Part shown: piece by piece, positions 2,793 through 53,344 of the stretch
Position numbering within the stretch: the first letter of the stretch is position 1
Layout of the letters: each line of letters opens with the position of its first letter
NCBI GenBank assembly: GCA_950106755.1
Contig: OX467085.1
Coordinates: forward strand, 4,526,001-4,590,000
Reading direction: 5' to 3'
Origin: Climacium dendroides
Lineage: Eukaryota > Streptophyta > Bryopsida > Hypnales > Climaciaceae
Length of the DNA stretch: 64,000 nucleotides
Position numbers and translations under genes: made by a program
Notes under the pieces: model-generated
Database searches by the model: none
Seen by the model: the letters and a program-made list of their open reading frames with translations, nothing else
Told to the model about the DNA's origin: nothing

Positions 2793-3893
2793 ATGGCATC
2801 GATGAGAATTGATGGTTATGACATTCCTCTGGTATTCCCGGTTGGTGATGATGGGCACGCTAGAGTCCCTTATCACCTTCTACACGTTCGATTCAAATTT
2901 GTAGAGTCCTCCATCTATGTCGAGGAAGAAAAAAGGTCGGAATCAGGTGAAGTGCTTCAATCTATTCCGGTAGTGAAGTTGGCGGAGGATGGAACGTATT
3001 GTTGGTTTCTTACTCCTGGGAATTACAGAGCGTATGGACTTCCACTCTCCATGCTAGGTGCATCAACAGAAATCCAAAGTCGACAGTCAAATAATTCTAT
3101 AGTTGATATGCCATGTAGTCCTCCTGCCCTGTCACCTACCCCAAGTAGAGAAGCTCTACGAGTCCCACACATGCCTCCAATACTTCCTGATGTGAAAGTG
3201 GAGAGATTAGATCCAATTATAGAGTTGTCTACCGAATCTGAAGGAGAGTCTCCCAATGTCATTGCTCGAAAGCGAAGTGGTTCTGTCTAGATTGCATCTG
3301 GAGAGACAGGCATTGGGAAATCACTATCTAGTACCCCGTCAAGAAGTCTCTCTAATTCATCACCATCACTACCTCCAATACAAACACATGTACTAGCAAA
3401 AGCAAGCATCATGGAGTGTCTGAAAAGACTTGCCAGTATGCATCGCTCTCGAAATGAATTGTCAACAATGGATCTGAGCACTGTGAAGCACCAAAGGGTT
3501 CCGTTTCTCCCACCTATATACGACGGGGATGTCATCTTCGAATTGCCTCCTTGTAGACTATCTTCATCTTCAACAGGGGCCAAGCACTTGGAAGGAATGG
3601 ACAAGCGCTACGATGGACATCCGTGGTGCAAGCTCATGACCACAAACATCCACAACTCCGACAACCTCAAATTCCATAAGTCCTACTGTGCTGGCCATCT
3701 CGTTTGTGAGAATGCCAATTGTCAGTATTTGAAAAGAGCTTCACGGCAAAATGAAACTGAGTGGAGTGGCTACACTGTGTTTCCTTTCACTGTTGGCGAG
3801 TGTCCCCCAAAAGAGTCTAGCCTAGTTTGCAAGGTTTGCAAGATGCCACCAACATGTTTTGGTTTATACATGTCATATTCAGTTTGTCAGTGA
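2793..3893 (+). pseudogene. Truncated cysteine-rich, zinc-finger-like transposon-type protein
   Basis: One reading frame runs from ATG 2793 to TGA 3891, broken by one in-frame TAG at 3288-3290. The N-terminal third has no motif I recognise. The middle is Ser/Pro-rich. The C-terminal part carries a cysteine/histidine pattern (YCAGHLVCENANCQYL, then LVCKVCKMPPTC) next to a WCKLMTTNIH block and an NETEW block. This spacing recalls the GCM/WRKY-like zinc-binding modules that precede transposase domains in plant elements, but I cannot name the family. The frame ends six bases before the first 19-bp palindrome at 3900, and no downstream catalytic part follows. The gene is therefore probably cut by the neighbouring element or deleted at its 3' end. 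The family assignment is inference. Confidence 0.45.
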
Positions 3894-3899: not shown

Positions 3900-3976
3900 T
3901 TAACTCAAGACGAGTTAAATGTGCAGAAACAGAGACAAGGACCAAGAAATAAAAGTTTTAACTCGGCTCGAGTTGA
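3900..3976. repeat. 19-bp palindrome sites, cluster A left pair
   Basis: Two imperfect copies of the palindrome TTAACTCGAGTCGAGTTAA lie at 3900-3918 and 3958-3976. They sit immediately downstream of the stop of the minus-strand ParB-like gene and immediately after the end of the truncated plus-strand gene. The same motif recurs on the other side of the ParB-like gene and in a second cluster at 14759-15492. Confidence 0.75.
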
Positions 3977-3979
3977 AGT

Positions 3980-5425: not shown

Positions 5426-5428
5426 CTA

Positions 5429-6005
5429 TTAACTCGACTCGAGTTAAATATTATTTAGTCATAAATGTATTTTCAGGAGCATGGTGGTTTGCTTGAAATT
5501 CTGTGGGTGAAGTGTATTTTTGATGGTACTGATTTAGTTCGACGCTTACCGTTTGCATTGTTTTTAACTTGGGCCGAGTTAAGGTTTCTATTGTGTGTTT
5601 CAGTTGTTTTTGTCTTCCTAGGAAAATGGTTTCTTTTACAATTATGTTATCTGTCGGATTGGATTATTTCCGGAGTTCAATATTTCTTCTTAGTATGTAT
5701 GTGAATTCAATATTTACTCACTATTTCACTCAAACTGAATTAAATAGATTCGTTTATTAAAATACTCAATGGAGGTTTGCCGCTGGCATTTAACTCGGCT
5801 CGAGTTAAACTAGTCGTCAGGATTGATTTTCGATATGTTTCTGGGCTTTCTTCATCCACAAATTACATCGTACATGGTCATGACAGTTAAGTCGCGTACA
5901 ATTTTAACTCAAATTAAGTTAAAATCTAGCGATGCTTTAAAAAAAGAGCTTCTGAATACCTAGTTATTGAGTTAAACTAGCATCGAGTTAAATTGCTTCG
6001 TGTTA
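5429..6005. repeat. 19-bp palindrome array, cluster A right
   Basis: Copies of TTAACTCGAGTCGAGTTAA-like palindromes lie at 5429-5447 (perfect arms around a central C), 5564-5582, 5790-5808 and 5904-5922. Half-sites GAGTTAAA follow near 5970-5990. The array begins four bases upstream of the ParB-like gene start and extends about 580 bp away from it. A short TTTAGGG-type double motif follows near 6025-6045. No gene is supported inside the array. Confidence 0.75.
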
Positions 6006-14758: not shown

Positions 14759-15492
14759 TCCACTCGACCCGAGTTAAAGTATGAGTACATCATTCGACAA
14801 GAATCGTGTTACAGGAGGAATTTCAACTCGACCCGAGTTAAAGTATTAGTACATCATTTGACGAGAACTGTATTACAAGAGGAATTTCAACTCGACCCGA
14901 GTTAAATCATATAAAAGGAAATTATTTAATCTCACGTCTACTTGATAGAGGACAAAAGTAACTGTAATTTTGAGATATACTAATAGAACCGTTATTTTCT
15001 ATTTAACTCGAGTCGAGTTGACTTTGTTTTACCTTTAGGGCATGGTGTCTTGTTTCAGAAATGACTAAATATCTATGGTCATATGGAACCATATGAACTT
15101 TGATATTTAGTCATCCATGAAATTCTGCAATGTTACATTGTATCTAATCGTTTAAGTACTTTATCTCGTATCGAGTTAAATGCGAAGGGTCGGGCTGAAG
15201 TATATTTTAGATAAAATTCTTCTCGCGGAAGATATCATGTGCTCTCAATCCTAGTTCATTTAACTCGAATCGAGTTAAAGATTTCAGATTGCATGTTCAC
15301 TTTCATCAAACTGATTTCTTGATTAACTGACCTGAAATAATCGATTACTGATTTCGTCCGTAGGATATTTTAATGTTCTGTATATCTTGCCCTCGTAAGA
15401 TCAATCATCGATGCCCTCTAAGTTAACTCGATTCTAGTTAAAGCTCAGTATCTTACAAGGTCGTTACTTATAGTTAACTCGAGTCGAGTTAA
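14759..15492. repeat. 19-bp palindrome array, cluster B (eight sites)
   Basis: Sites lie at 14759-14777, 14823-14841, 14887-14905, 15003-15021, 15161-15179, 15260-15278, 15423-15441 and 15474-15492. Sites at 15260 and 15474 have perfect arms (TTAACTCGA, one base, TCGAGTTAA). The first three sit exactly 64 bp apart as a tandem repeat. The later spacings are irregular (116, 158, 99, 163, 51 bp), so the conserved part is the site and not the spacer. The array ends about 80 bp before the start of the DUF7869-type gene, where one expects promoter or transposase-binding sites. Confidence 0.85.
15061..15118. repeat. Hairpin within array B
   Basis: TGACTAAATATC near 15062 pairs with GATATTTAGTCA ending near 15115. 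Further pairing of CATATGG/CCATATG lies inside. It lies between the fourth and fifth palindromes. It may be a regulatory stem or a small fold-back remnant. Confidence 0.6.
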
Positions 15493-15575
15493 GTATATTC
15501 ATCCACACGGTGATATCAAATGATTCAATATTAGTATCCATGTCTAATAAATTGTTAATTTCACGCATAGTTGAT

Positions 15576-18407
15576 ATGGCTGCTCGCGATCATCCTTTGC
15601 AGGAGTACTCTTCTGATGAAGGAGAGATTGAGATTGATCCAATACAAGACATCGTCATTCCAGATTGTGACGGTATCCCTCGAAGACTATGGATCACGAA
15701 AATTGTTGTCCTCCATAACTCTGATGGGGAAGTGGTTGCTAAGGGAATCTGTCATAGCGTGAATTCCGAACATGTTGTAGGTAGCAATGGTCCCCTTGGA
15801 GACTCGCTTGTCGCTATTCAAATATCAAAATTGCTACGGCCTACTAAAGTTCCTGAAGACTGGAAGTACTCACTTCATGCTTGGCCCATTGATCGAGTGT
15901 TTTTAAATGGGGCCTGCCTTAATGACCACGAGATTTGAGACCAATATAATCGTCTACAAGCAAGACTGTCACAGGGGTCCTCCTCAAGTGCAAGACCATA
16001 CACAAGCTCCGTCAGGATTCCTCCACCTCAGGCTCCTGTTAGAGCATACACTCTACTTAGCCAAGAGTCTATCAATTTAATATCGAGCAAGACGTGCTGC
16101 CCCGGAAACTGTGTCCAACCTTTTTCAAGAGAAAAGATTCGGGCTTTCTGTGAACGTATGTACCACAAGACAACCTTTGAATTCCGATACCACATGAAGT
16201 TGGATGTTCATCGACAAGTTCACCGTAATGCTCAGGGGAAGAGGGTGGTCACTCTCGAAGGGATTGATGTTTGTATGGCAGCATGGCGGCATATTGCAGG
16301 TGTCTCCGAATCCACCTTCCACCGTTTCCAAGGATATGCTGCAAGAGGTGAACAAGCTCAACTACATGGAAATTTGGGAACGTAGAAGGCTTGAAAGCAT
16401 TCTTTGCAAGCCCTTGCGACATTGAAGTGTGTGCTTGAGAAGTCAGCTGACCACATGCCGCACCGCACGCACACCCTTTCGTCTGAGGAGAAGGTGGTGT
16501 CTAAGATTCTATCCGCCACCTTCACTTGGAAAAATACGCTACCCGAGGTCAACGCAGCAAATGCTGTGTTTGGGTTGAAAGAAGTTTCTCCATCAAATAT
16601 CTGCAAAATTAGGAAATTGAATTTTCCTGAATACTCAGTGAAGAAACCCGGAGATAATTTTGCTCGTTGCTCTGATTGTGATAGATATCATGAACAAAGA
16701 AGAATTGCCCCCATTGGATTACGACGGAAGTGGGACCACCTATTGGAAAAACACAATGCTTGTGCTCGAGCTCATCAAGATCTATACTATACCAATCGGT
16801 ACAGGTCGAGCGCCTACCCTAATGAATGCCTTACGATCATGCATGATAAAATGGATCATGCAAAAACAGCATCTCTTGTGTTTTCACACAAAAGCAAACA
16901 ACTTGACGGCCTCACAAAGTTGCCGGTATCAGTGACTGGAATGATTGCTCATGGGCACGGTGACGTCCGTTATGCTCATTACGGTCTTGATATCTTCTTA
17001 CACGATTCTAACTACACGGTGGGGTCGTTTGCAAAGCTATTGCGAGACCTTGAACTTCCTCCAAAGTATTCCTCCCGGGAGTTGTTTGTTGGATCGGGCT
17101 CAGCTCCATTATTTGAAGCAGTGTTGAAAGGGTTTGAAATGTGTACGTCGTTACTTCGGCCACCGCCCGAAGTCCCTATTGCAGCCGTTCCCCTTCCTCC
17201 GGTTTTAAACGTTCAAATGGACAATGCCACTGGTGACAACAAGAATCGTTATGTCTTTGCGTTTTGGTCCCTTTTAATAGTGAAGAAGATTTTCCGGGAG
17301 ATTTACGTGAATTTCATGTTAGTTGGTCATACACATGACGACATTGATGCTTTGTTTGGAAGATGGAGCATGCAATTGAAGAAGGAAACTTTCCCTACCA
17401 TCCCAGCTCTCATGAAATCCTTCATGGATGTAGATTCTGTGCCTACAATTCCACACTTGATTGAGGAGGTACCTGATTTCAAAGCCTTTATAGAAGGCTC
17501 CATTTTGGAAGGGGACGAAGCACTTGTTGGCCATACAAAGGCACAACAATTCAAGTTCTACCTCAACTCGGCAGGTGTTCCAATCATGAAGTATAAGAGG
17601 TATTGTACGGATAGTGATTGGCTTCCAGAAGAAGGGAGAATCAAATTATGGCGAGAAGACTCTGAAGGACGAATTCTATGGCCTCGTGGTGAGCCCATCC
17701 CAGTTGACTACGTTCCCATGCAGGGCGTGGAGGACATCTCAAAAGGGATGTCAGGGTTCATCAAATATTGGGAGGCATTATGCAACGAAGACGAGAGTGG
17801 AGAGTATAGGAGATGCTTCGAGCATTTGTTGTTCTATTGGCGTGCAGTGAAAGCATGCTTGGTGCAACCCATAGTACCATTCGAGACATTGAAGGATGGT
17901 TTCTGGCCTTCTACACGAGTGGAAGCCATTGTAGAGGACGAACTTGATGACAATGGTGACGTTCATGAAGAATTTGCTGAGGACAATGTCTTTGTGGGGC
18001 AACACCGTGATCGGCCATTGCCATCTTTCCGAGTGGGACGTGATGTTCAAAAAGACTTTTTTGTCGCCCTTCGACCGGCTGAAGGTGATACAAAGCCCGT
18101 TTGGATTGCTAGAGCTTTGTCTGACCCATTCACAAATCCGAAGCATCCAAATTGTATCTTGATTCAATATTTTTGGCCCACGGCAAGAGGCCAAAATGTT
18201 CAAGACTTTTACACTGGTTGGGACTCTACGAAGGGATTGCGTTGGAAAGTGGACGAGACCCAAGAACCTATTTGGGAAGATACGAATTCCCTCATCACAG
18301 CATGGAGGTCGAAGGTCAAGAAGGATACAATAGAGTGTGTCCTTAGAATCCCTGTAGCACAAGTTCATGTCATCAACGGGAATTTGTCTTCGTACAATTC
18401 CGATTGA
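15576..18407 (+). pseudogene. DUF7869-type transposase-like protein, three nonsense codons
   Basis: From ATG 15576 one frame runs 944 codons to TGA 18405-18407 with no frameshift. It is broken by TGA 15936, TAG 16383 and TGA 16392. The part from 16404 is open for 667 codons. It includes a CCPGNC cysteine block, then RVVTLEGIDVCMAAW, SADHMPHRT and KKPGDNFARCSDCD. Candidate acidic catalytic blocks follow: MHDKMDHAKTA (about 16845), NVQMDNATGDNKN (about 17210) and GHTHDDIDALFGRW (about 17325). These blocks are diagnostic, from my knowledge, of the plant DUF7869 family, an RNase H-like DDE-type group found with mobile elements. The role as transposase is inference from the acidic triad and context. 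The palindrome array B lies directly upstream. The 3' end has no copy of the palindrome within 850 bp. Confidence 0.75.
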
Positions 18408-27400: not shown

Positions 27401-27553
27401 ATGCACGGCTTCAGTGGAAGTGGAATCCGCTGCAAACCCGACATATGTAAGTTTATTTGCACTGTTCATTGTGTTCTTGCAATCCTCCTTTGCCAGTTTC
27501 TTCATCGACCCTTGAATAGTATGCGGCATTTATATCCCAATTTTTTTTTAATT
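24446..27553. other. Intergenic, no recognised gene; one tandem duplication
   Basis: Short frames exist (for example 25143-25328, 26272-26457, 27185-27574) but none shows a family motif or a convincing splice partner, so I do not call them genes. At about 26975-27120 a 72-bp unit occurs twice in tandem (TACCGCTCACCGCCCATG and TACTACTCACCGTCCATG). Transcribed exons of an unknown gene cannot be excluded. Confidence 0.4.
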
Positions 27554-27647
27554 GACCGATTCTGGTGGTACTAGGGGGTTCCCACAAAACCACCGTCGAA
27601 TTTGATGGTGGTTTTGCGGGAACCCCCTAGTACCACCAAAATCGGCC
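27554..27647. repeat. Long hairpin 1 (44-bp arms, 6-base loop)
   Basis: The left arm 27554-27597 pairs with 27604-27647, with four mismatches in 44. The arms contain TGGTGGTACTAGGGGG and the complementary CCCCCTAGTACCACCA. The flanks (TATGCGGCAT before, GCAAAGGAGGCAATCTGAG after) are shared with hairpin 2, so a larger unit of about 170 bp is duplicated. Confidence 0.9.
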
Positions 27648-28084
27648 ATGCAAAGGAGGCAATCTGAGTCTTGACAATGAGGTTCTAGTAAAGGTTGATG
27701 ATTAGGACCTCCATCCGCTTGTCCTCAACAACGATAAGGATACGTTGAATGTATTAGTGCGCCTCAATTAAGTTCAACGAAAATTTTATTTACGTCAAGC
27801 TCATCCATGAGCACTAACCGCACTTGCTCCTATCTGTGCCGGTTACCTCATTGCGGGCTTTGTGTGGCCCTCGCTACCAATCTCACGATTAGTTGACTAC
27901 GGGCTTCCAAGGGCCCTCATCGGTAATCAACTTGCGGGAAATGTTAAAATGATTGATCCGGTTACCTTGTTAGGGGAGTCAACTTTGTTCATTGTGGTAG
28001 CAACCTACCTTTGTTGGTTTCATTTTTGATTCATGAAGAGTATGCGGCATCGGAAGACTTTTTTATTCCAATTTCTTTTTAATT

Positions 28085-28178
28085 GACCGATTCTGGTGGT
28101 ACCGGGGGGTTCCCACAAAACCATTGTTGGATCTAACAATGGTTTTGCGGGAACCCCCCGGTACCACCAGAATCAGCC
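28085..28178. repeat. Long hairpin 2, related to hairpin 1 with matched arm changes
   Basis: The left arm 28085-28128 pairs with 28135-28178, with three mismatches in 44 and a 6-base loop. Relative to hairpin 1, five stem positions differ (TA to CG in ACTAGG, and three C-to-T changes near the loop). All five are matched by the complementary change in the other arm, so pairing is preserved. Possible explanations are arm-to-arm gene conversion, palindrome formation by template switching, or selection on the fold. Confidence 0.9.
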
Positions 28179-28597
28179 ATGCAAGGGAGGCAATCTGAGT
28201 CCATTGCAAACTCTCTCTATCAGGCAGGAAAGCTGAACAGGTGTCTTTGACGTTTCAATTTTTTTGCTTGAATTCTACCATTGCTAAAGTAGTTGTAAAT
28301 CACAGTCTTATATATAAGTAGACGATGCCTTTATCCAAGTGCATAGTCATCAACAAGTCCAGCAAGTTTGAAATTGCCGATTGTGGCCATCAATCCGGTT
28401 CTTCCACTGTGCACACATACATTCACATTTCACATTTTTGAATGTTCCCCTGTACACATTCACATCTATGATATTCGGTACGGGTTGTTCCTGTTATTCA
28501 GTAGGGATTGTTCCTCTATGGGCACGCACATTTTTTATTTTCAATTTTTAGATGTTCACTACAAAATTTTCATGTTGAACAACAATTTAAATTAAGT

Positions 28598-28830
28598 ATC
28601 TTGAGATAGCCCGACTAAGTGGAAATTTCAAAACTGAAAGATTACAACTGAATGGAGATTTCAAATTTGAAAAGACCCAAACTAAGTGGACTTACAAAAT
28701 TCAAAGAGCTCAACTGAGTAGAAATTAAAAACTGAAAGAGAGCTCAAACTGAGTGGAAATTCAAAACTAAGAGAGAGCTTAGATTGAATGGAAATTCAAA
28801 ATTGAGAGAGCCCACTAAATGAGGGTTCAA
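28598..28830 (+). repeat. Degenerate tandem repeat, about 38-bp units
   Basis: Six or so units contain AACTGAGTGGAAATTCAAAA, each followed by CTGAAAGAG or a variant and then GCTCAA. The units are diverged and lack an open frame. The sequence on either side (28200-28600, 28830-29360) is AT-rich with no supported gene. Confidence 0.75.
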
Positions 28831-29363
28831 AAACGTGAGTGAAGCTAGTTGATTTCACACAAATTAGTTTTAGTCTGTGTTTCATTATCGAGAATTAGAA
28901 AAGCTGTAGTTGTCCTTAATTTCTCAATGCTACTTTCATTGCAATTTTCTAGATGTTTTCATGAATAGGTGTACGAAAAATAATAGAATTGTCTTATAAC
29001 TTTGGTTTTGAAGTAGAAATGAAAGGCTTCTCCTATATTTTAATGAGTTTTAAGATTATTAATATTAGAAGGATGAACTTTAGGATTATTAGATTGGACT
29101 AGAATACAAATGATTTAGTGTATTCATTTATTTTTATCTTCAGGCTCCCTTCAATATATTACGAGGTAAAAATAATACTATAAAGTATGCTGTAGGTTTA
29201 GGGTTGTATCAATAGAAGGATTGGGACTTTATTTGAAGAAATTTCATATTATTTGTCTTATAGTGGAACTTGCTGCAAGGACATGATCTTGTCTCTCCTC
29301 TCTCATCCTTTTCATTCAAAGATGAAGTTTATGAAGGTGATATTAATTATATAATTTGTATAG

Positions 29364-29618
29364 ATGGAGCTGATAGTTGATATCATTGGACAAGCTTCTA
29401 CTTCAATAGTACCTGGTACAATTGATGAGGTTGGAGTAATGTCGATACAATCTTTGTCAATGACTCCTACACCAACAAACAATGACAAAATCATTGAGTC
29501 GATGCTACACGAAGATAGTAATGTGGTAAGCCTAGGGGACATCCTAGATGCTTGCGATCGAGTTGCTGATCAACTAGAAGAACCTCATATTAGTTGTTTT
29601 AGTGGATGGAAGAATTAA
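29364..29618 (+). CDS. Small acidic ORF, possible 5' exon of the ParB-methyltransferase gene
   Basis: An 84-codon frame (start MELIVDIIGQ, containing SLGDILDACDRVADQLEEP) precedes the ParB-like exon by about 830 bp on the same strand. I recognise no domain. Its composition (acidic, helical C-terminal half) would fit an N-terminal exon of the gene that starts at 30453, but no convincing splice pair joins them. It may be unrelated. Confidence 0.25.
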   Translation: MELIVDIIGQASTSIVPGTIDEVGVMSIQSLSMTPTPTNNDKIIESMLHEDSNVVSLGDILDACDRVADQLEEPHISCFSGWKN

Positions 29619-29699
29619 AAACAAAAACAATTAGTTTTTTCATCTGAGAGTTTTAGTACAGAGTATAGCTCTGATTTAGAATAAGACCTCTCAATTTGT

Positions 29700-30440
29700 A
29701 GTCCTGAAAGTGAGGAATTTCATAATCATATTTGTCACGCCTCTATCTTCTCTGGATGCCCAATGAACCTTAGTGCGCAAGGGGGGACCTTGGGGGTGAC
29801 TTCCCAAGCCTTGCAATTGACTAGGTAGGGAGATTTGAGAGACTCCCAATCAAATAGGGCATAATGACGCCTTGTTTTTGAAGTGAACGGTAGATTATCA
29901 TACATTCTTGGAAATCTCTTGACAATACGCTTCTAATGGCGCAAAAAACGCATGATTTGGAGTTGTGAGTTATAAGTTATGGCCATTCAAAGTTGACTAG
30001 GTCATAATGGCGTCGAGACACTTGAGGGCAAGGTGTGAGGGGTTCTCAATGAATCCCATAAGAAAGTATGGCATGTAACATATCGTTGGAAAGCTATGAA
30101 CATAAGGAAGCTATAATGACAAGCATTACAAGGTTCTAAGACATGAGTCAAAAGTTATGGCCAATAGAAGAGTTGTAGTGAAGGCGTGACGTCTCCCTCG
30201 GTGAACCCAAATCTTTGAAGGGCCATAACTTTCCGAGAACTTGTCTTAATGAGACTAGTGAACAATCCATCAGCATTCACTCGTTGCATAGATGTCTAAA
30301 ATGGTCTTGTATGTTGATTTGGAGCTCTGAGCACAAAGTTACACCCCATTGAAAGTTTGGGAGTCCAAACGGTGACAGAACTTGATGATTTGAGTTGGAA
30401 TTGGATGGTCTTCCACAATTCAAGGTTATTTAAGGATTTT
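29700..30440 (+). other. Non-coding sequence with recurrent 'ttatggcc' blocks
   Basis: Phrases such as AGTTATGGCCATTCAAAG, AAAGTTATGGCCAATAG and GGGCCATAACTTTCC recur at intervals, with TCGTTGGAAAGCTATGAAC between. Such phrases are common in plant transposon internal regions. No gene is supported. Confidence 0.4.
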
Positions 30441-30452
30441 CTTTGACCTAGA

Positions 30453-33400
30453 ATGGGGGAGTCTACTGAATACCATAGAGAGTACTATAGGAAGGGTTGG
30501 TCTCCCTCCTCTCTCCCTCTTGAAGCCTTGGTGAGTCCCAATGACTCATGGTTGGTGGTGGTGACTTCACCACCACTGCAAGGCACCATGGGACACTTGT
30601 GTGTTTTCCGTGGCATCAATTGGGTGAACTTTGAGCTCTCACTTGGTTTACATAAAATGAAAAATGAGGCAAGTGAAAGCTCAAAGTTCACAGAAGAAGA
30701 GATGAACGTGTGGGATTCACTATGGAAGCAACGCAATGCTGAGTTCGAGGAATACTTGGAATCTGTACCGAAGCTGCGGTTCATGAAGAATTCAAAGTTC
30801 TTTGTGTGCAATGGAAATCACCGTCGCATTGCATGGATGAATTTGATTGATAGGAAGTATTCAAAGGACCCTCTATTTCGCAAAGCGGTGGATTGCATTG
30901 TTTTGGAAACAAAGGGAAAAATTGAGCTTGTCATGCAAATGATGCATGACGTCAACAAGTGAGTGTTTGTTTGAAAATTTTTATTGCCTTTGCTTCTAGT
31001 TTTTGTGACTTTTAATTATGTGTTATGCATTGTTTGTAAACGTTGTAAATGACAAAATATATCATGATAATTGCAGAGCCATGAAGGGTTCACACGTGAA
31101 AACCAACCTTGTTCACACTCTCTATCGTGTACAAAAGTATGGGTTTCAACCTTTACAAAAATTTGTAGAAATGTTGAGGCCTTCGGAGAGAAGACGATGT
31201 ATTGGCCAGCCAACAAGGAGGCATTGATACTCTATGCCAATTGATGTCTTTACAGCTTTTGTATTTTGAGTGAGAATTGTAGTCGTGGAAGTCTGCAAAA
31301 TTTTAATTTTTCAAATTTCAATTATTAGACATTATTCATTATTTACTTTAATACATTATGATGTATTGTAATAGAAATCATATTGGAGTTTTGCAGCAAG
31401 AGATATCTAATGCAGCAGATGTAGTAGTACAAAAGTACATAGAGGTCACAGCATTGGAGGAGAAAAGTGAGTAAGGTGTTGCTAATGCAATGAGGGTTGC
31501 AGCAAAAGAAAAAACTACAATTTAATTGCAAAGATGGGAAAATTGTTGGTTGTTGTAAATCCTATATGTGGTGCAAAATTCATTGAAGAGGTGAAATTTC
31601 ATTACTCTACAAACCATACACATTGATAATTTATAATTGTCTTCTGGTTTTGGTAGTAACAACTTACTAGATTGTTCTGTAGATTGAAAAGTATTGGAGC
31701 ATGAACGAGGTCCTTGAGATGACTTTTGAGAAGCTGCAATGGGTTGCAACATGCAACATATCACCATTTCAGAAGATCAAATTCTTAAAGTGGTGGAATT
31801 CTTCAATGCCCTCTAGAGATGCTCGGCAGTTTCCAGCTAAGCCTATTTCCGAGGAGAAGCTCTTGCCTTTTTTGAACTAGTGCATTTGGTGGGTAGGGGT
31901 AAGTTTATCTTTGCTTTCATATTTAGCAATATTTGTTTTTTTAACTAAATATCAAAAGTTTCTATACTTTTGAATTCAATGAAATTTAGTTGCTCTTATC
32001 CCTTATTTAATCTGATGAATGTATGAAATTGATGTTGATAGAGGAAGCTGCCGTGGAATACTTTGATAATGTAGTGCAGAAGGATAACCTCTACATCAAC
32101 ATGGCATCCCCACTTGAGTTGGAAACTCTACCAGAGTATATTGAAGGATGGAGGAGGAAGATTTAGGACCAAGTTTTTGGCCCCTTACTAAAAGGACAAA
32201 ATGCTTTCAAGAAATCGGACTCCTTCTCAAATTATGATGGAGCCGAACTGGTGGTTCGAAGAGTTATTTTTCAATATGAATGTGAAACTTTATTTTGTAA
32301 TTATTATTTCATTCATAGAGATGTTTGGCACGTGGAATTTGTACCATGATTACTTTTGGTGAACTATATTTGTAGGAAACTTTTTCAAATGGACAATTTG
32401 AACCCAAGTAGTGGTACAATGGGGTAGACAAAAAACAATTGTCGGATTCGACGATTGTTTCTTGAGTACCCCTTAGTACCCCCACTTTTGTTTCTTCAGT
32501 AAATTTCCATAAATGTTTGAAATGTTGTACTATTCTTGTATTATTTGCAACTAATGATTAATATTTTGGTGTAGTTACTTCAAGCATGAGCTTGTACCAA
32601 AAAATGCTATTGTTCAAGAGGATCTACTTCCATTTTTATCAAGTTGGCTGGACCGGAGTTCTACAGAGTGCATGTACACACCGAGCCAACTTTGGACATT
32701 CACGACAACAAATCTTTCCGGTGGAGGATGGTATATTGATTGTCCCATCATATATACACATCCATTAGAGATTGCTCTGCGAAATTCATTCGATGGCCTT
32801 GGAGTTATTGACATAGAGGTCCTTGAGTTTGTTGATCTCAATGACAAGCAAAAGAAGAGGGCCATTATGCAAAGGATGCTTGCAGACAAGAAAAAATAAG
32901 ACAAGGAACTCGAAATTCGAGCAAACAAGGACAAGAAGGAAGCAGAGCGGTTGGTAAAGTTGGCAAAAAAGGAGAAAGAGGCGGAGAAGGAGGGAAAGGG
33001 GAAAGACAAAGGCAAGAAAAAAGCTGAAGATAGTAGCCAAGTTCCAACGTCTTTGATGGTGGACCAAGGTTCTCAAATACAAGCTGGGTCTCATAGTGGA
33101 ATGAAGAAGAAAGCCGTTTTGCCAGAGCTCACAAAGGATATGATTACACAAGGAACCCAAGTAATAGTCATAGATGAGGAGGAGGAGGTCAACTCCGAGG
33201 AATCGATCCTAAATTTGTCCATCATCAATGTCGTTAAGAACATGGAGAATGACGGACCAAATTGCTACATGGAAGTCATGGACTTCTTAAAGAAGGTGAA
33301 GTTCTATTTCATTTTGAATTGCAATTAGATTATATTGTTCAATGACATGAAGGTGTTATGAAGTTTGATTTTTCTAATTCAATGAAAATTGTTCTTTTGT

Positions 33401-34798
33401 CTTTTGTAGATGTCAAGAAGAAAGGGTCGCACATACAATGGTATTCTGAATCATCAACTAGGAGTGGACCTCATTCTATTTGATTGCCAAGAAAATTTGT
33501 TTGTTCTTGAGGTTTTTATTCCGCAAGATTTGGTGCCACTACGGAACTGTGACCCAGAATACAAAGCCATTCAAATGGCATTTGTCTTCGCGGAGACGTA
33601 TTTACAAGACCATGGGTGTATGACTGTGTTCCACTTGTGGTGTGCCACTTCAAAGGGCATCATTGTAGGATTATGTGAACCGTATTCCACATTGGTGCAA
33701 AAAGCCAATTGATTGGATATCAATTGTATGCATTTAACCTCCGCTGTGGACAAGACAACCACGATATGATTTCTAAAAATGTATATGATTTGATTGGCTT
33801 GTTGTAGTATAAATTGTTTAATTTATTTATCTTTGATGATCATTATTTAAAATGCTTGTAGACTATGAAGTTTGGAATCACCGTGTTGGTGAAGGATCAG
33901 GCTAACAAAGGGAAATCCATGTTCACTTTCAAGTGCATGGAGGTAATGCGGAAGGCAAAAGTGGATCTTCGTCAAGACAACATGTTTCTAAATTATACCA
34001 CAGAGGACACCATGTTAAAGAACGACACAACATCAATTCCGTGGTAAGGGGCGATAAGAAGGATGTAAGGTTTTTACAGTTCCTCATAGAAAGGACAACC
34101 GAAAAAGGGGATTTGGTATTGGACTACACAACATCTACGAGTAAGTGTTGAATTCAATGATTGTAAATTCAACTTTAATTTCACATATTAAATCATGAAA
34201 TTCATGAATTTGAGTTTGATTATTGCAGGTGCATTGATTACAACATGTCGTAGTATAAGGCGCTACATTGTGGCTTTGGAAGAGGACAAGGATATTTTCA
34301 ATGTTGTCCTCCAACCCATGAGGAGAGTCAATCCAGCCCCAACGACACTTGAAGTGATACAGCCTCCGGCTTTGGTGATGGCCTCACAAGATCCGGATGC
34401 AATGATTGTGGTACCTCACAAGTTTGCTTGGAAGGATAGATCTAGTAAGTAAGTTTCAAGATTTTTTAATTCTTTGTGTGCATAATACTTCTTATGTTTC
34501 AAGAATCTAACAATGCACAATGATATTTGTTAACAGGCATGAAGGGTTGAAGTTGGCTCATACATTGGTAAAGAAACAAAGACTTATCTTAAGTTCGGAG
34601 AAGTCTTTTAATCTTCCAGAATATGTTGAGAAAATAGCATCAACAATAGTAGACTTTGGTTTCCCTAAACCAAAAAAACATAGGGAACCTTATGCTTTAA
34701 ACGTTTTACAGTTCTTAGATGTTAGTGCATCAGAGGGTAGAGAGGCTTTGGATTCATCTACAAATGATGATTCCGCGACCGAGTCCACTACAAGTTAG
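30453..34798 (+). pseudogene. ParB-like / amino-type DNA methyltransferase fusion gene, intron-containing
   Basis: A multi-exon gene. The first exon ends at 30958. Phase-consistent GT-AG introns are 30959-31076, 33296-33409, 34141-34228 and 34449-34536, and others are likely near 31210-31397, 31470-31682, 31890-32041 and 32296-32583. The N-terminal exon has FFVCNGNHRRIAWMNL (residues 116-131), the ParB/Srx-like core. Then follow an IEKYWSMNE exon, a Lys/Glu-rich linker (32880-33060) and a methyltransferase-like C-terminus. That C-terminus has GVDLILFD (position of the DPPY motif, here DCQE), then across a splice GDLVLDYTTSTS, then RRYIVALEEDKDIF, which is motif I plus the following acidic strand. 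This order (motif IV before motif I) is that of the N4/N6-type family PF01555. In-frame stops (about 31877, 32164, 32897, 33712) and a frameshift near 34045 show decay. ParB-methylase fusions are known in bacteria and phages. An intron-bearing plant-type copy is unusual. Confidence 0.6.
32406..32487. repeat. Hairpin 3, in an intron of the ParB-methyltransferase gene
   Basis: The arms 32406-32444 and 32449-32487 pair imperfectly (about nine mismatches in 39). The apex, ACAATTGTCG then GATT then CGACGATTGT, has the same layout as hairpins 1 and 2 (CAAAACCA near the loop, a palindromic GGATC/GGATT loop). It is therefore a diverged member of the same fold-back family, sitting in a predicted intron. 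Confidence 0.7.
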
Positions 34799-37744
34799 AC
34801 TCATGAGATTGATATTTTTCGTGAGTCAAACTATTATGTGTTGATTTTCATTATGATCTCATTTGTGTGTTTTATGGCTACATCTTGTGCGTCACTTATT
34901 TCTTTGTACACTTCTACATGTCAAGATTTTTATGAAATTTTAGTACTACACTTGTGGTAATTCTAAATTTTTTTTAAAAGGATGGATGTCACTTGTTTTA
35001 TAAAAACAAACTTATACTTCACCCACGGTCATAGGTCCGCCATCCAATTTTCCAAAAAAAAGTTCTCCACTCACAAGCTCATAGGCTCACGGGCTCATGC
35101 TCACATGCTAGCAACCCCGTGTCCCAAGGTCTCCAAAATATGATAGATTAATGTTGAAGGAAATTCCAAATTAGCAAAAGAACCTAAGGGCCTAAACAAA
35201 GACCAACTAAGAGAGCTACAACAAGAAACTAGTTGAAAAAGAGAAGAATAAGGACCAATTGAGAGGGCTAAACAAAGACCAATCGGGAAGTCAAAAGGGA
35301 GAGCATTCAAAACAAGGATTGGGCCAATCAAGTTTTGCCTTGTAGCCATTGCTCCATCACCCAAGTTACAGGGGTCAAACCAATCAAATTCTGCCACGTG
35401 GTATGGCTAAGCTAATTAACTACTGAATTATGTTAGTTGACTACTTTGAACCAAGGTTGATTAATTTCCTGAATTGGGGTGCAAGCTAGCTTGCCAAGTC
35501 TAAAATTTTCCTTTGCTAGACTATATTTTTTGACATCCAAACTTGGGCCAAAAGACTAGAACTTAAAAAAAATTGTAATTGATTCAAAGAGTTGTATATT
35601 AAAGTAGAATTGAAAATAAACTAGCATAGAAGTAGAATTGAATGAAGAGCTAGAAGGAGAATAGATAAGTGTAAGAGTCTAAAGAGAATATGTAGAACTA
35701 ATTTTCACTCAAATTAAGTTTCCAACACCAAGAGTTATAAATTAGAGGAGGAAAGAAAAATTGAAAGACACTCACAAGCTAATAGATAGAACTTCTCACA
35801 TTCAATTTGCAATTGATGGAATGAAGGGGTGGTTTAAAAGTTGAAGAGACCTTTAAGGGTTGATGAGATTAGGTAGAAATCCTAGAGAATCAAATTAGAC
35901 CATTAGAATATAGATAGAATAATAATTAACTTGGATAAGAAATAAGAGGATTTCAAAAGTCAATTATTGTTTGGGAATTTGAAGTAATTATTTAATTGAA
36001 GTCACCCCTTGAAAACTAAATAATTGAGGTAGAATAGTGTGGAAATAAAAGAGGAGTAGAAAAAAAAATGGGAACTTAGAGAGTTGAGAGTTTGAAACTT
36101 GTATTAACTATATAACTTTAAGCGGTGAATAAAATTATAAGAAAGATCCAATTATGGCAAATGATGGGGATTTTGAAGGTGTTTTCAAACACCTTCTAGA
36201 TAAGGTGCATTTCAAGGTGAGTTACTACTTCTTTTTTCCCTTTTTGAATTCTCTAAATTAGCCAAATTACAAGTGCAAGTCAAAGTATTAAGTTTAGGTT
36301 TTTCCAAAATCTCGATAGAAAATCTTATAAAACTTATTTAGAAGTTTTCAAAAATGTATGACACTTAGAAATCAAAGTTAAATTGATTAGTGGATGAATT
36401 TTAAATAACTTTTTAAAGGCTTAAATTTCATCTGGTTATAACTTTTTGTAGTAATCTTCAAATCTTGCAAGTTATGTTTTTGAAAATGACGTGATCTGAA
36501 TTACACCTCAAGAAGGTTAAATTTATATTGTAGTTATTTTTATTAAAAAATCAAAATAGCTTAAAAACTTCATGTTATTTAGAATTGATTTTAGTAATTA
36601 AGATAGTTTTGTAATTTTTTTGTGAATTTATAGAACTTTAAGAACTTATAAAAGATCAATTGCTTGGAAGGCACAATGAATCGACATTAGGCACCTATTT
36701 AAGATAAAATTAACTATAAATTTTAAAACTTGGTTGTACTTGTATACTTATCAAAGGTAAATAAATAAATGCTCACAAATATGCATCAATAATTTAGTAC
36801 TCATTTTGTTCATGAGAATGATGAATATATCCATCATTATTCAGTAAAAATTTTAAATTTTCTACATCCAAGCAGTTTACTACCTCACCAATTAAATCTT
36901 AAATGTAATCAATATATGATGTTGGTAAAGAACTTGAACTTGGCAAAAAGGTTTGTGTAATGGTAGTTGTTTTTATTGGATACAAGTGTCTCCATTTGCA
37001 TTATTGTGTGAAATTGTAAAAGGATGCCATCATGACTAAAAGATGTTGATTTCTAGAATTATACATCATTGTAATGATAGCTACTTGGCGCTCATACTTT
37101 GTCAAAGACAATTTTTTGTTACTAATGTTTATGCCATGATAATCAACAAATTGCAAAGTTAATTATATAACCGAGTTGGCATTTATCTTCAAAATGAATT
37201 ATTTAGTCATGGCCAGTTATGTGTAGTTTTGTCTTGTGGTAAACATTCTGCAAACATTAAGATTGCTAGTGAGAATTCAAATGCCATGCAAGTAGTAAAA
37301 AATGTGGTTTATCATGAAAAGTTTGTATGACATTTGTCATGTAGATATCTATAAATATCAACATCGTAATTAGGTGGATGAAAAAGTTAGGAGTTTGTTT
37401 CAAATTCCATTTGTTTAGGGTTCATACAAGCTTTGATGACATCGCCTTTTATCCAATTGTATTCTTTTGGTGTCCATCATCATGTCATAGTCTTAATTAA
37501 GACAACATATTGTATTAGTATTTATAATTACATTATATTTCAAACATTTTTGCTATTTATGTTTGGATTCTTCTACATTTCAATAAATATATATATTTTA
37601 ATATATTCATCATTGTATACACTTCATTCATTAAAATTTATATTATACATTTCAATGTGCATTTCTACAAACAATTTAATTTGAAGACATTGAAATTTAT
37701 TACTTTATATTTTATTATATGAATATTATGGTGAATGTATAGCA
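34799..37744. other. AT-rich intergenic sequence
   Basis: I see no supported gene over almost 3 kb. The sequence is A/T-rich with simple-sequence character. Near 35200-35280 an AAAGACCAA phrase occurs twice, which hints at old duplication. No transposase motif, tRNA or hairpin was noticed. Confidence 0.5.
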
Positions 37745-37860: not shown

Positions 37861-38524
37861 TTGTTCCATTCTCCAAAGGAGTTGAGTAAGAAATTGGCTC
37901 CTATACGAGGTTGTGTTGTTTTCTTGCTCTTTGAAGCTTTCCTTCTCCATCTTTGCGGGATTCAATGAATCCATTCACCGAGCCTTGTTGACCCCACCCA
38001 TGGAACTTATTGAACTACGGCATGCTTCTTTTCGTGACGAATTTCGAGTTGATGTAAAGGGATTGCGTGGATACAGTTGTGGTCGGATGATGGTTTTAGG
38101 TATTGCTCTGTCTGTGGTTATGGTCGGAACACGCCGTTCGTGGACTGATTGTTTGACGGCACTGGTAGCGTTGTTCGCGGTAGGACTACGCGCATGTCAA
38201 GAAGACGTGGATTTTTAGGAAAATCTATTTTCAGATTTAATTTCTGTATTGATTTTGACTTTGAAACCCAGTCTTTTTCCTTCTTGGTATAGTTTTGTGC
38301 TTGATTGTAATTCGTTTACTGTGGGTTAGAAAGGTCTTGCGGTGGCGGGATTGAGATTTGTTGATGCTCGGGCTGAGTTCAGTGTGTGCAGACTCTGTTC
38401 CAATCTTTGTCATCTGTAATTTGGACGAGTTTGCAATTTGTGTGTCTTATGGCTGCTATTTCTGAAGGGTATTGTCTTTTGTAGATCTGTGGTAATCACT
38501 TGCACCCATTTTTTTAGGTTTAAG

Positions 38525-41500
38525 ATGGCCGTACTGCACAAACTGTGGATGCTTAAAGCGAGTCTTCGATCATCGTCCGTTTACAAGGGAGAATCTTTAT
38601 CAGGGGGACTGATTCAGTATCTTTTTTATAAGGAAGCCTCCGGTCCTTCAATTGCGAGCCCGGAAGTATCTCGCTTTGTCACTGCTACTGTTGGTCACTC
38701 ACAGTCATGGCGCTCTTTGGGTTCCTCCTTCACTGGGGTCTTTTCGAGCAGCCGAATTCCTGCAGCAAATCACAATCCATCGACCATCTCTTCAATCCAA
38801 CTTCAGGCTCTTTTGTCTACAGAAGCCCTCTCTCACGTGTTTTCTACCTCCACAATCAATTGTCCTTCCCTTCAGAATTTTAGATACACCTCTGTCAAAG
38901 TGGCAACTAAATTGAGAGGCAGAAATCTCGGAAAGCATTCGGAGGCAGGATTGTACGTGCTACCGTGTCAAATTCAGGGAGTTCTCAGTCAGAAAGAAAG
39001 CACGACTGTGCCGAATCAAGGCATAGGTAAAAAAAACTCTGAGCTGCGTATATGGAATGAGCATGGATGGTGCAATAAACAGACTCAGATGGACAGAGAT
39101 GGAGTTGCATATGTCGAAGCCTGCAAATACAAGTCAAAAGCGATGACGTCAGTGGACAGCCGTTCATTTGTGATTCAGGGTATAGATGACTTACGTGAAG
39201 GGAATGAAGATTCTGATGTGGAAGAATGTGCTCTTGATGGCCATATTCACGATCAGAACATGATCCTCGAAATTGTTTCGATGCAGGGCTGCTTGAATGT
39301 ACAACGTGTGTCCATTCTCTCTATTGAACGTTATCCGTTTGATCCTGTGTCTTTAGTATCGGGTGTAGAAGATTCTCATGGAAGTTTTGCAGGAGAAGAG
39401 TCATCAGGCTTGGAATTTAGTGGATGCGACGAGCTTCGCTACGCTGAAGACCTATCAAGGAATTCAGACAAGTAAGGACTTTCTCGTTTGATACATCGAC
39501 CTGTTTTGGCATTGGGTAAATAATGTGGACGGTCCTCCATATATTTAGTTCTGTTTTAGTATCCAGTTTCGCTGCTTCGATTCTACAAGCTTGGAGGTGA
39601 ATCTCCCCTTTCGTCTCGTGAGGATGTGAAGAATACTCTTTAAACCAATAACAGGAAATGTGAGCGTTGCCTCCGTTGACACCTAATATTAATACGACTG
39701 GTAAATGCAAGGTAGAGGTACCACGATTATTTCAAGTCCCTGCATGTCCGGTGAACTGATGGATGGATTTATGCATTGATCAACTTGCGTTACAATGCAT
39801 TGATCACTGGAGCTGCATTGCCTCTCCAACCTTTGTCAACATTATGTCACATTCCAGTTTAATGTCCCTGGTTTGTAACCAGCATCACTCTAAACATAGT
39901 AATATGCTGGTGTAGCTAGCTTAATCTTCAATTCCAATGTCGTTTGATTTATGCAGTATTTCTGAAACTTGGTGTGGAAGTGATTACAATTGTGCTTGAA
40001 ACACAATCTTCGGTGAAGTCACACTTACTAAGACTTGGTTGCATTGACTTTGCTCCTTTTACACGAAAGTAATTGAGGAAATGGGACATGAAATTCATGC
40101 CGATTTAGTGCATTCCTCAATCCTAGTGTGTTTTAAGGTCTTCTTGCAGCGAGGGAGCACGACACAGGAATCTTAGACTTCTGTCTGGTGCGTGCTGCTT
40201 ACCACATCCGAATAAAGTGAAAACTGGAGGCGAAGACGCTTACTTCATCTGTTTTGAGGAGCAAGTAGTGGGAGTAGCTGATGGTGTCGGGGGCTGGGCT
40301 GATGTGGGTGTTGATGCTGGTGATTACGCAAGGGAGCTCATGTTTCAGTCTAAGCAGGCTGTTGGCCAGGAACCGCATGGGTGCATTAATCCAGCTCGTG
40401 TTATGATTCGTGCTCATGCAAGAACAAAGTGCCGTGGTTCATCCACGGCATGTATTCTTGCCCTCTCTGATTATGTAAGGGGACTCATCTGACAGTATTT
40501 TGTTGGCCAGGCTCGTTCTGAAGCATATAGATGTCACGATTCAGCGTGCTTACTCTGGAGTAGGTAAATTGCTTAGATAATTTATTTTGTTCTTGTTGAC
40601 CATTTCAGGTTCTTTCGAGTTTTGCGAGGATATTCTGTCTGCTTGCTGATAGAGTGGATACGTTGTTGCTTCTTTTGAAGTTGTGTTGGAACTGTGAACG
40701 AGGGATGCTCGTCAATGCTTGGTGAATGGGATATCAACTTAATCCAAAAGTGGGCATAGTATTTGAAGTTCACAGTAGTGACCAAGGCATATATTATCTC
40801 CAGTCGATCCAATTTAGATTCCTTCAACTGTTGATTACTGTCCATCGTGATTGCAGGGGCTTCAAGCTGCAAATCTTGGAGACAGTGGCTTTATGTTGAT
40901 GAGGAACGGTCGAACTGTCTTCAAGTCTCCAGTTCAACAGCACCAATTCAATATTCCTTTTCAATTGGAAAGTGGTGGCAGCGATCCTCCTAGTTCTGCT
41001 GAGGTACCATGTTCAATTATTCTTTCACTGATAATAGCTAATGCTTATGTTCAGAAAGGTTCAATAAGTATGAACAATCTGCATTTCGCTGCTTAAACTG
41101 TATAGAAACAGACATTACAAGCTCAAAAAGTTATCAATGAATAACCATAAATTATGTTGGAAATACCTTTCAAGCTATTTTCAAAATATAATGTATTAGC
41201 ACATTAAATTTTTTTAAGGAATACAAGGATTTGTCTTTTTATTGCTAGCTATCTACCATTCAGTAATACTAATATTGGTAGCTATTTCAGCATGCACTCC
41301 GTGAGGCTTGGTGGTAATGAATATCTCAATTGTATCTCTACAGAGAAAATTGGTATTTCTAGACGATTCCGTTGTTTGATGTTGTGCAATGGCTCGTGTG
41401 CGTGGCTAACAGCACCAACACTACGTTGCTTTTGGCACAATGTTGAAAACTTGAAGAAATCAACTTGTATAATTGAATATTGGCATCTAGAATTAGAACA

Positions 41501-49700: not shown

Positions 49701-52700
49701 TCATTGTGCGTGGGGATCTTTTGCATCTGAATTTATAGTGGGCCCACCTGGAATTGTAATTGTTGGAACAACAAATGCCGGGGTTGACCCACTAGGTTCT
49801 GGTACGTATGTACTTAGGAACGGTTCTACCACCCTATTTGGATCTCTTGCCCCAATTCCGAGAAGTGGACGATTAGTAGGCCTTGATGATGATGCTTCTC
49901 CAATTTGTTGACCTTCTGTTTGTCCACGGCCTCTAGTGCCTCCACGGCCTCGAGTCCCTCGAGTCCCTCCACGGCCTCTAGTCCCTCCACGGCCTCGAGT
50001 CCCTCGAGTCCCTCCACGGCCTCCAATCCCTCCACGGCCTCCAGTCCCTCCAGTCCCCCCACGGCCTCCAACCCTTCCATGACCTTGTTGATATTGCCCT
50101 ACTTCATGACGAATGGGGGGCCGAGGAGCTATAGGTGGTCTACCCCCAGTAGTACCACGTGAAACGCTTTGAGGAGTCAAATGAACATTCCCCACTGAGC
50201 CTAACCCTTCCTGAGAAGGTCTTCGGATGGCATTGGAAGTTGTTATTGAAGATGGGTCTATGGAATGTGGCGTTTGTGTACCTTGCTCTGAAATAGCAGG
50301 ATGGCCCGCAATTGGAGCAGGTACACGGGCAAGGTCTTCTGCAGGGTCCACAAATGCAAAAACATCATCAAGGTCCACATGCTCTAGATCAAAAGGCCTT
50401 CTCACATTACCATCCGGTTGATTTCTTGCAATAGGGCGTGCCACTCTTGCATTTCTAACGTTTCTGTCATGGTGTCCTTGAATAGTTCTAATGTTACGAG
50501 TTGATGGCCTCACTCCCGTAAGCCCTGTATTGCCATCTCGAGTGTGAGAAGATCCTTTACGATTTGGATTTGCATTCCTCCCCCTGTTTCCGTCGCCATC
50601 TTCATTTCCACCACCATTTCCATTTCCACTGCCATTTCTTGGAGGGAGGTTGTCATCATCGTCGTTGTTGTTATGGGAAATACCATCATCGACGTTATCG
50701 TCATTTGGATTGTCGGTCTTTAAAGAAGACAACAAAGCTTGGACTTCAGCATTCCCTTCATTTTGAGGAAGTGGAGGTGAAGGATGGCGACGTGGATTGG
50801 GTGGAATGGGTGGCCCCCAAGGACCCCAACGACCATGGAGTTCCTCCTCTCCATTGTCATCATCTCCATAGTAGTTCCTTGCTTCCTCGAGGTGATCGGC
50901 TCCTCGCCTCCAAAGATTTGGGTTTGCTGGATACTCTTGAGGGTTTAGATTGGCTTCTCCATCAACCTCTTCTTCTTCCTCTGCTTGCATTGCGTCAAAT
51001 TCCCGATTGCGTTCATTCACCGGGATTGGACCAAGGGCATCTGGATCGGAATCCTCCGAGTATATATTTGCATCATACCAACGAACTGGATCAGCTCCTG
51101 GTCGCTGCTGAAGTACACGGCTATTGGTATAAATATATACCAATGACTCTGCCTTTTCGGGGGCTAATCGATTTTGGACCTTATTGTGAACAAATGAATA
51201 GTTACTCCAATTCCTTTCACAAGAGCTTGCGGAACATGTGAGGGATAAAAGACGCATGACAATTTTAGAAAGAGACCGATCTCCAACCTTGTGCCACCAT
51301 TGGTGGGGAAGCATTTGTGTCACACGGATGTTGGGTGTCTCAGCTGCACTGTAAGGTCTAGTACCCTCCTCAAATTGTGTTAATTCCGCCAACACATCAT
51401 CGAAATCCACACCCACTGAATCTGCCATCTTATGGATGACTTTGTACAATGCACGTAGGGCAATTCCATCCATCCTGAGCGCCACATTATCCAAGAGGTA
51501 TGGATTCAAAAGGGCCGCAGCGTAGTGTGTATCTTCAAAAGCCATCTCCCACCTTTCATTGAAAGATTCTTCCAAAGTGACTACTATGTCATCACGTAAG
51601 CTGAAAGGTGGTTCTTTTAAAGAATACACATGCCCTCGTAAATTGTGCATTACGAGCCACGCCCGATCCATGGCTGGTTCTCGTCCATCAAACACACGCA
51701 AAGCCTTCAATACGTCTTCAGTCATGTACACGTAATTCACACATCGTTGCCAGAAGGCCACATCTTGAATGGTGTTTCTGACATTACGTGCAACGGTAGC
51801 TGACTGCGGGCCATTTTGTTCGTTCCGTAAGGTATCAAAGTAATTTAGAACACGCGGGTGGTTATTCAACTACTCCAAGACTGCTCTGAGTCTCACCAAG
51901 CGTTGCAACATGAGGAAATTACAAGCAAAGCGGGTTTCAATAGGCACTACGAGTTGCAGATTTGGACTCAACTCACGGAAAACCAACATGGTTGCATGAT
52001 GGTTTTGAATGTATTGGCACAATCTTTTTGCCCTGACAATCAAATCGGAAAATTCCTGGATTTTGGCCCAATCTTCCAACATGAAATCCAATGCATGTGC
52101 CATGCAGCCTTGCGCAAAAATGTGTGGGTATGTTCGAGTGATGTCTTGCAATGCCCCAAGCATGTTTGTTGCATTATCTGTGCACACTTGTATCACATAT
52201 TTGGAACCCACCTTCTCAATGTACACTTTCATTTGGTTCGCTATATAGCGCATGGTTTTCTTTTGTGAGGTAGTATCAATCGACCCCCAAAATACATCAC
52301 CTGCGGGGCGTGACATCATCACATTCATGAGAGGCCTCTGATTGACATCATCCCAAGCATCGCTGCATATCGTCACCCCGTAGTGCTTCACAGCAAAACC
52401 AACCTTCTCCTCAATCCGCTTCTCAATTTGCAACCTCCTCGGTTCAATTAAATTAGTCCTGAACTGATGGTAAGAAGGTGGACTATATTCAAACCTCGCC
52501 AATGAAGTTGTCTTCACAGCCTTGAAGAAGGCTGGATGCCTTGCCACATTAAATGGCACATTCGCTTCATAGAAAAAACTTGCCCACTTCTCATCCAACT
52601 CCTTCCTCTTTGCAATGTTGAATGCGTCCACCATGCACTGTTGACGTAATGATCCAGATCTCGTAGAATTTGATGCAGTAAGGCTATTGGACGTTTGTAG

Positions 52701-53090
52701 GGTTTCATTTCCTTTTGAAACGTTTGCCCCTTCTTCCGCTCTGCCACCATTGACCCCACCCGTCACCTCATTTTCTGTGGCTTCACTTGAACTTGCAAGT
52801 GGAGTTGTTCTAGATGGCGTACTTTGAATTGGTTCTCCTTCATACATGTCCCTAGAATCCATTCGTAGCAGGACAAAACCTGCACAATTGGCAAATCTAT
52901 GGCGCACTGCACGAGGCATACTTCGACAAATTGACCTCTCCGATTTTGAGCCATATCCGAAATGTGCAAAAGCACGCTCACGTTTGTAACTGAAGGTCCC
53001 AGCACAAAAAACACAAGTCACCTTCGTCCCATTCTCCGCAAAGTTTAGCCACGGTTCCCATTCCTTGGTCTGCTTCCTTTGACTTGCCAT
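49701..53090 (-). pseudogene. hAT transposase with BED finger and RGG-rich tail, one nonsense codon
   Basis: From ATG 53090 (MASQRKQTKEW) one frame runs 1130 codons to the stop at 49701, broken only by TAG at 51870-51872. Domain order: a BED-type zinc finger (residues about 10-60, CVFCAGTFSYKRERAFAHF); a DUF659-type RNase H region with TICSDAWDD (first Asp), VCTDNATNMLGA (second Asp) and GCMAHALDFMLEDW; then the hAT C-terminal dimerisation block with SLTCSASSCERNWSNYSF (catalytic Glu) and NRLAPEKAESLVYIY. After this comes an unusual tail of about 400 residues. It is acidic, then Asn/Asp/Gly-rich (NNNDDDD), then a run of GRGGTRGTRGRGG repeats (nucleotides 49920-50080). A TATA-like element on the same strand and a GGGCGCGGAC array lie upstream. 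It would act on hAT element ends. The single stop makes it nearly intact. Confidence 0.88.
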
Positions 53091-53344
53091 TGCGTTCAGC
53101 CGTTCACAAATAATTCCAAATGTCTTCCTCCTCCTTTGTATTGAAGTTAAAAAAACCAAAGATATACCAAACAAAGTATCAGTAACAACAGTTAGCACTA
53201 ATCCACTGCTTGAACTGATTTTGACATCACTTCAATAGCAAACTAGGGCCATCTGCCACCCAAGTAGACTCACAAGGAGCTCAAAATGAATTGAAGTCCA
53301 AGAGATAGAGGCCAGGTGACAAATGTAGGGAATGCTCGGTCTTC

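Follow-up and report, generated by a model that had tools for sequence, protein, structure and literature searches.

What is the intron-bearing gene at positions 30453 to 34798 of a 64,000-nucleotide stretch of Climacium dendroides DNA (contig OX467085.1, positions 4,526,001 to 4,590,000; the whole stretch is called the window)? An earlier note on this DNA read there a ParB-like domain fused to an amino-type DNA methyltransferase, in a nuclear gene that had joined a repeat family after capture from a prokaryote or virus. Our best explanation as a whole, of moderate confidence, is that a decayed copy of a DNA transposon lies here, from a high-copy family whose members are about 15 kb long, resemble Mutator-like elements (MULEs) and carry two divergent genes. 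One of these, the ParB-MTase gene, would have ten exons and about 1,100 codons; its product would consist of a ParB-like N-terminal region, a long middle that includes a Lys-rich part and a C-terminal methyltransferase-derived domain. The other is a probable transposase gene. In this view the ParB-MTase gene did not enter a repeat family from the nucleus at large but resides in a large DNA transposon, and its introns are common to the subfamilies seen.

The ParB-like exon has at least 150 matches in its own genome (412.6 Mb in 123 contigs; 150 scored of 1,921 candidates), which confirms the multi-copy, repeat-associated family described in the earlier note and goes far past the evidence given there. 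Counted by eye, about 125 of the 150 among the matches listed show no stop inside the match. Twenty of the 150 places were fetched: 15 plus-strand copies with 239-residue open frames, and five from other branches. Long matches are about 93-97% identical within a subfamily and about 64-88% identical between subfamilies. The inspected copies share a right end, which reads TAGCAACCCTG in 14 of 15 copies and TAGCAACCCTA, with a change in the last base, in the remaining one. The left end, CAACGATGCTAG, was located in six of the eight copies tried, and the other two gave none. Flanking direct repeats are exact in five of the six two-ended copies, over 10 bp in four and 9 bp in one; the sixth has an imperfect repeat. 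The element is about 14.9 kb long in one copy, and short tandem arrays sit in its noncoding parts. The reverse complement of the right end was not found within 12 kb, and the two ends, CAACGATGCTAG and, reversed, CAGGGTTGCTAT, are just partly similar. Excerpts of published accounts (PMC6446971, PMC5735166, PMC13317346) give MULE target-site duplications of 8-11 bp, a range that includes the exact 9-10 bp repeats found here, and describe SWIM and FLYWCH fingers, MULEs without terminal inverted repeats, and VANC. The evidence for MULE membership is suggestive.

The ten exons of the ParB-MTase gene (E2-E11) map in the same order across the fetched copies, although some are absent in L020, L029, L034, and L037. 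Three of the 20 fetched copies are stop-free in all ten exon matches, frameshifts not being counted separately. GT donors were found within a few bases in the following numbers of rows: E2 21/21, E3 19/19, E4 21/21, E5 17/17, E6 2/2, E7 20/20, E8 15/17, E9 16/18, and E10 17/18. AG acceptors were found in 19/20 rows for E3, 21/21 for E5, 20/21 for E6, 14/15 for E8, 17/17 for E9, 15/18 for E10, and 13/13 for E11. E4 and E7 scored 0/21 and 0/18 in this test, since their query exons begin a few bases off; AG is visible at both acceptors in copy L019. The exon order is kept in relatives and GT/AG recurs at most testable boundaries, which places both halves in a single spliced gene, as had been proposed.

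Ratios of nonsynonymous to synonymous substitutions (dN/dS) were calculated over all exons by the Nei-Gojobori method on hand-picked pairs. They were 0.15 and 0.18 between subfamilies (two pairs, dS about 0.26), 0.16 and 0.13 in relation to L036 (two pairs, saturated, with dS above 2), and 0.40, 0.61, and 0.38 within subfamilies (three pairs). By exon, the between-subfamily values were 0.12 and 0.22 for E8 and 0.09 and 0.12 for E9; E10 on its own is weakly constrained (0.56 and 0.85). Judged by these ratios, the gene has been under purifying selection between subfamilies. Protein searches matched three ENA proteins with no family match: P0001 (E 1e-29), P0002 (E 6.5e-29), and P0003 (E 8.7e-8). 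P0003 spans E3 and E4, and P0001 and P0002 stop at the final residue of E2, which is expected if the first intron bases were read as a stop. Protein searches using the long composite of the window gene found no relatives; we think that this reflects intron-bearing relatives being split into exons in the database. Pfam, applied to the exons one by one, gave no match above its cut-offs.

Early searches on the methyltransferase half used composites of the broken gene, read through its stops. The spliced C-terminal exons matched PHROG 18293 (E 5.5e-9), the CcrM model of NCBIfam (7e-6, far under the model's own cut-off), a Cronobacter phage methylase by tblastn (5e-4), and Pfam PF01555 only weakly (E 0.12; 0.019-0.12 across the tests made, under its cut-off). 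In the family alignment, all five members matched PHROG 18293 (best 9.4e-9), 3008, and 6952. The hhalign alignment to seven phage ParB-methylases spanned the entire domain (P 8.9e-6, probability 83), with a methyltransferase score of 44.0 vs. a best of 25.8 in shuffles, and none of 60 column shuffles scored as high. In a hidden Markov model (HMM) test of the methyltransferase, the scores of 18 rows ranged between 19.7 and -0.6 bits, the lowest being that of the truncated window row, and 900 shuffles reached at most 5.8 bits. A profile search of the PDB returned seven rows headed by CcrM, DpnA (two), and N4C methyltransferase (two), with E values of 0.07-1.7; no row is significant alone and the last two are T-cell receptors. 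The methyltransferase signal exceeds chance, and these profile comparisons show the C-terminal half to derive from amino-type (N4/N6) DNA methyltransferases, in agreement with the identity first assigned to it.

Motif IV was readable in 17 rows: 11 show DCPEN, four show DCQEN (the window included), and two show DCPKN. In two further rows it was unreadable, one having a stop inside the motif and the other lacking the stretch. None of the 17 readable rows carries the catalytic (D/N/S)PP(Y/F/W) motif, a DPPY-like form or an aromatic residue; CcrM carries DPPYN at this position in the PDB profile alignment. The rows read retain motif I in the form [CY]x[AT]ST. The changed catalytic tetrad argues against ordinary amino-methylation, which is doubtful for this protein.

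The N-terminal half shows GNHR in 19 of 21 rows, and a GxHR-type motif is a mark of the ParB/Srx family. Of the 38,880 PHROG families, PHROG 1033, a ParB-like partition protein, drew matches from the largest number of members (three of seven, best E 0.024), and the one alignment range shown, that of member 1, covers the GNHR motif in register. The ParB core scored 18.07 by hhalign vs. at most 17.91 in 60 shuffles; full-length hhalign aligned ParB elsewhere, at a different spot. Structure prediction was uninformative (pLDDT 37 with one sequence and 36 with three). The evidence for the ParB domain originally claimed is suggestive, and ParB ancestry of this half is likely but unproven: the motif, the core score and the PHROG 1033 match speak in favor, but most tests were not significant. 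A match of the half to a Rhizobium phage protein turned out not to be a ParB match; the alignment lies away from any ParB context, and the only Pfam match of the phage protein is a weak cadherin one.

An open reading frame (ORF) of 792 amino acid residues precedes the ParB-MTase gene on the left, in divergent orientation on the opposite strand; subfamily L036 also has a homologue of it. From its Cys/His-rich N-terminus and DDE-like spacing, judged by eye, we read it as a putative MULE-like transposase.

The element copy in the window extends from about 28196 to 35119, beyond the 30453..34798 interval first delimited, and its nearest relatives among the fetched copies are L034 and L035. The 5' part upstream of E2 (28196..29712, plus strand) shows 86-90% blastn identity to L034 849-2264, and the segment that follows (29713..30662) has no blastn counterpart in L034. 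This segment is foreign and holds the start of the first exon proposed by the earlier note. Most of it (29730-30626) is a repeat that is met again, with 86% identity, as an insertion in exon E8 of copy L030 (L030 6291-7188). Family homology in E2 begins at 30663, therefore 30453-30662 is not family coding sequence and the proposed first exon cannot be kept in that extent. The remainder of E2 (30663..30961) contains the ParB-like motif FFVCNGNHRRIAW and ends with the donor AA/GTGAGT; it shows 55% identity to P0001, and both end at the identical residue. At the left limit of the copy, 27529-28201 contains two direct copies of 142 bases, each a near-perfect palindrome.

The other exons, all on the plus strand as is E2, are E3 (31077..31266), E4 (31394..31590), E5 (31683..31898), E6 (32041..32271), E7 with the Lys-rich stretch (32579..33295), E8 with the N-terminal part of the methyltransferase-like domain (33410..33763), E9 with the S-adenosylmethionine (SAM)-binding motif at its end (33868..34139), E10 with ALITTCRSIRRYIVALEEDKDIF (34228..34449), and E11 up to the stop codon (34562..34798); the bounds of E6, E7, and E9 are match limits. 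The motif IV position (33482..33496, plus strand) reads DCQEN in place of DPPYN, and motif I (34107..34139, plus strand) reads GDLVLDYTTST. The right end of the copy, TAGCAACCCCG, lies at 35109..35119 on the plus strand. Seven in-frame stops (one in each of E3-E9), frameshifts in E4 and E9, and a change of the E8 donor from GT to AT make the window copy a pseudogene, and the inserted repeat supplied part of what had been taken as the first exon. The earlier note was right in its peptides, FFVCNGNHRRIA, GDLVLDYTTSTS, and IVALEEDKDIF being found where it placed them, and its motifs, spliced gene, and multi-copy family stand; however, its first-exon extent and limits do not. The second ParB-like copy (3980-5425) has no more than a short motif in common with the first (pairwise BLAST 20 bits, E 0.049), and its membership of the family is not supported.

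What might such a gene do? It has stayed with its transposon for a long time and so is probably of use to it. We infer that the ParB-MTase protein would act on DNA of the element that encodes it, binding that DNA through the ParB-like region and a SAM-binding fold. Our best guess at its role is that of an accessory or anti-silencing factor, comparable to VANC in the VANDAL elements. Under a wider and tentative proposal, a ParB-methyltransferase fusion of prokaryote type would have evolved, in a lineage of plant DNA transposons, into a non-canonical regulator that binds SAM and DNA, is unrelated to VANC and frees the copies of its own element from silencing, possibly with a ParB/parS-like use of repeated sites; in full, this may well be wrong.

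Several results weigh against a MULE-like transposon with a ParB-MTase gene of this function. The fetched set leans to intact copies because it was picked partly by open frames. The 792-residue ORF has no Pfam transposase match, even at E 1, and a SWIM-like pattern in the next exon is below the Pfam cut-off (PF04434, E 0.22, 11.6 bits vs. 19.6). No VANC domain (DUF1985, DUF287) was found among the Pfam matches of the exons scanned. On the ParB side, searches of Pfam, NCBIfam, and the PDB gave no ParB match, a phage ParB HMM scored the copies under the best shuffles (0.2 vs. 7.7 bits), and the window exon by itself gives no signal beyond chance. The database and HMM results, with a core comparison that barely exceeds its 60 shuffles, are what one would expect if the N-terminal half were not ParB/Srx and GNHR a chance likeness in an unrelated fold, a serious contender that we rate a little below an even chance; the PHROG 1033 match and the recurrence of GNHR oppose it. 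An active methyltransferase for N4-cytosine or N6-adenine, with which the element would mark its own copies at sites picked by the ParB-like part, would account for the retained motif I and for the low between-subfamily dN/dS in E8 and E9, and excerpts of PMC5890265 describe retroelements bearing DNA methyltransferases. The loss of the aromatic residue from motif IV in every readable row makes this unlikely, all the more so as, in the part of PMC8885841 consulted, changing SPPY to APPA in rotifer N4CMT abolished activity. The writing of N4-methylcytosine or N6-methyladenine suggested in the earlier note is weakened by the DC[PQ][EK] tetrad, and is rather unlikely.

Two further explanations concern the origin of the locus. 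Captured genes are frequent in MULEs according to excerpts of PMC6446971 and many copies contain stops, so that the gene could be a passively captured host or foreign fragment of the Pack-MULE type without a role; yet the between-subfamily purifying selection and the conservation of splice sites at saturated divergence make this improbable. An isolated captured gene was dropped, given the copy number, element ends, and duplications. The locus could also be what is left of a large endogenous DNA virus or of a phage-like element, and phages commonly have ParB-methylase fusions, but four scans of viral contigs showed no relative, and direct target repeats, introns, and a transposase-like neighbor leave this very improbable. 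The proposed prokaryotic or viral capture may have taken place; scans of viral contigs and prokaryote genomes gave no close relative.

Elsewhere in the window, the only transposase match (2781-3860) shows 58% identity over 360 residues to the probable transposase of the ParB-MTase element; this fragment directly adjoins the ParB-like copy at 3980-5425, on the other strand, and not the ParB-MTase gene. A palindromic 19-mer, TTAACTCGNNNCGAGTTAA, counted with up to three mismatches by a pattern defined after the repeat had been seen, occurs 16 times and only in two clusters, 3900-5991 and 14759-15492. The clusters lie around, and not within, the same ParB-like copy, and directly upstream of a large ORF with DUF7869 (15474-18407, Pfam E 8.5e-44), which is probably another transposon gene. 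Exact 8-base half-sites number 18 vs. 3.1 in 20 base shuffles, and the clusters may represent a repeat array of parS-like or subterminal kind. Two telomere-like TTTAGGG repeats lie near 6030 and a PP2C-like gene without Pfam match was read at 38420-40492, both taken as signs of a plant host. The minus strand at 49701-53231 carries an element with DUF659 (Pfam E 1.8e-34), which we take to be hAT-like.

Retroelements with a DNA methyltransferase gene and VANDALs with an anti-silencing gene are already known, and a DNA transposon with a conserved second gene derived from an amino-methyltransferase, its tetrad changed, would join both kinds. A mobile element may thus bring its own tool to handle its DNA or its silencing. 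The family offers a testable case: its methyltransferase fold may have been put to a new use against silencing by the host, or the plant nucleus may contain a non-canonical amino-methyltransferase. Furthermore, gene models annotated as ParB-like or methylase in such genomes may be transposon genes. In a literature search limited to open-licence papers, no transposon with a ParB-methyltransferase gene was found.

The precedent for a MULE carrying a second, anti-silencing gene is VANDAL/VANC (excerpts of PMC6446971, PMC5735166, PMC13317346). As described there, the Arabidopsis VANDAL MULEs with VANC resemble this MULE-like element in their duplications of about 9-10 bp, second conserved gene, and short tandem arrays in noncoding parts, and may resemble it in having few or degenerate terminal repeats; they differ in that DUF1985/DUF287 are absent from the Pfam results of the pieces scanned here, and the second gene is methyltransferase-derived. 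Phage ParB-amino-methyltransferase fusions likewise have a ParB-like region upstream of the amino-methyltransferase domain, and their methyltransferase half is matched over the full domain. However, the element gene is far longer, intron-bearing, and placed in a eukaryotic transposon, its motif IV is changed, and its ParB half does not match phage ParB significantly. SymbioLINE-Dnmt and DIRS elements with Dam-like or Dnmt3 domains also encode a DNA methyltransferase in a transposon (excerpts of PMC5890265), but these are retroelements with C5 or Dam-like enzymes, whereas here a DNA transposon bears a CcrM/DpnA-like relative with an altered tetrad. MULE-Phytophthora_1, compared by description only (excerpts of PMC6446971), is a MULE bearing an epigenetic-type domain, although its SET domain is a protein methyltransferase. 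Finally, bdelloid rotifer N4CMT and the Marchantia N4-methylcytosine methyltransferase are, like this protein, bacterial-type amino-methyltransferases in a eukaryote; in the parts of PMC8885841 consulted they are described as recruited enzymes and not as transposon genes, and N4CMT keeps SPPY.

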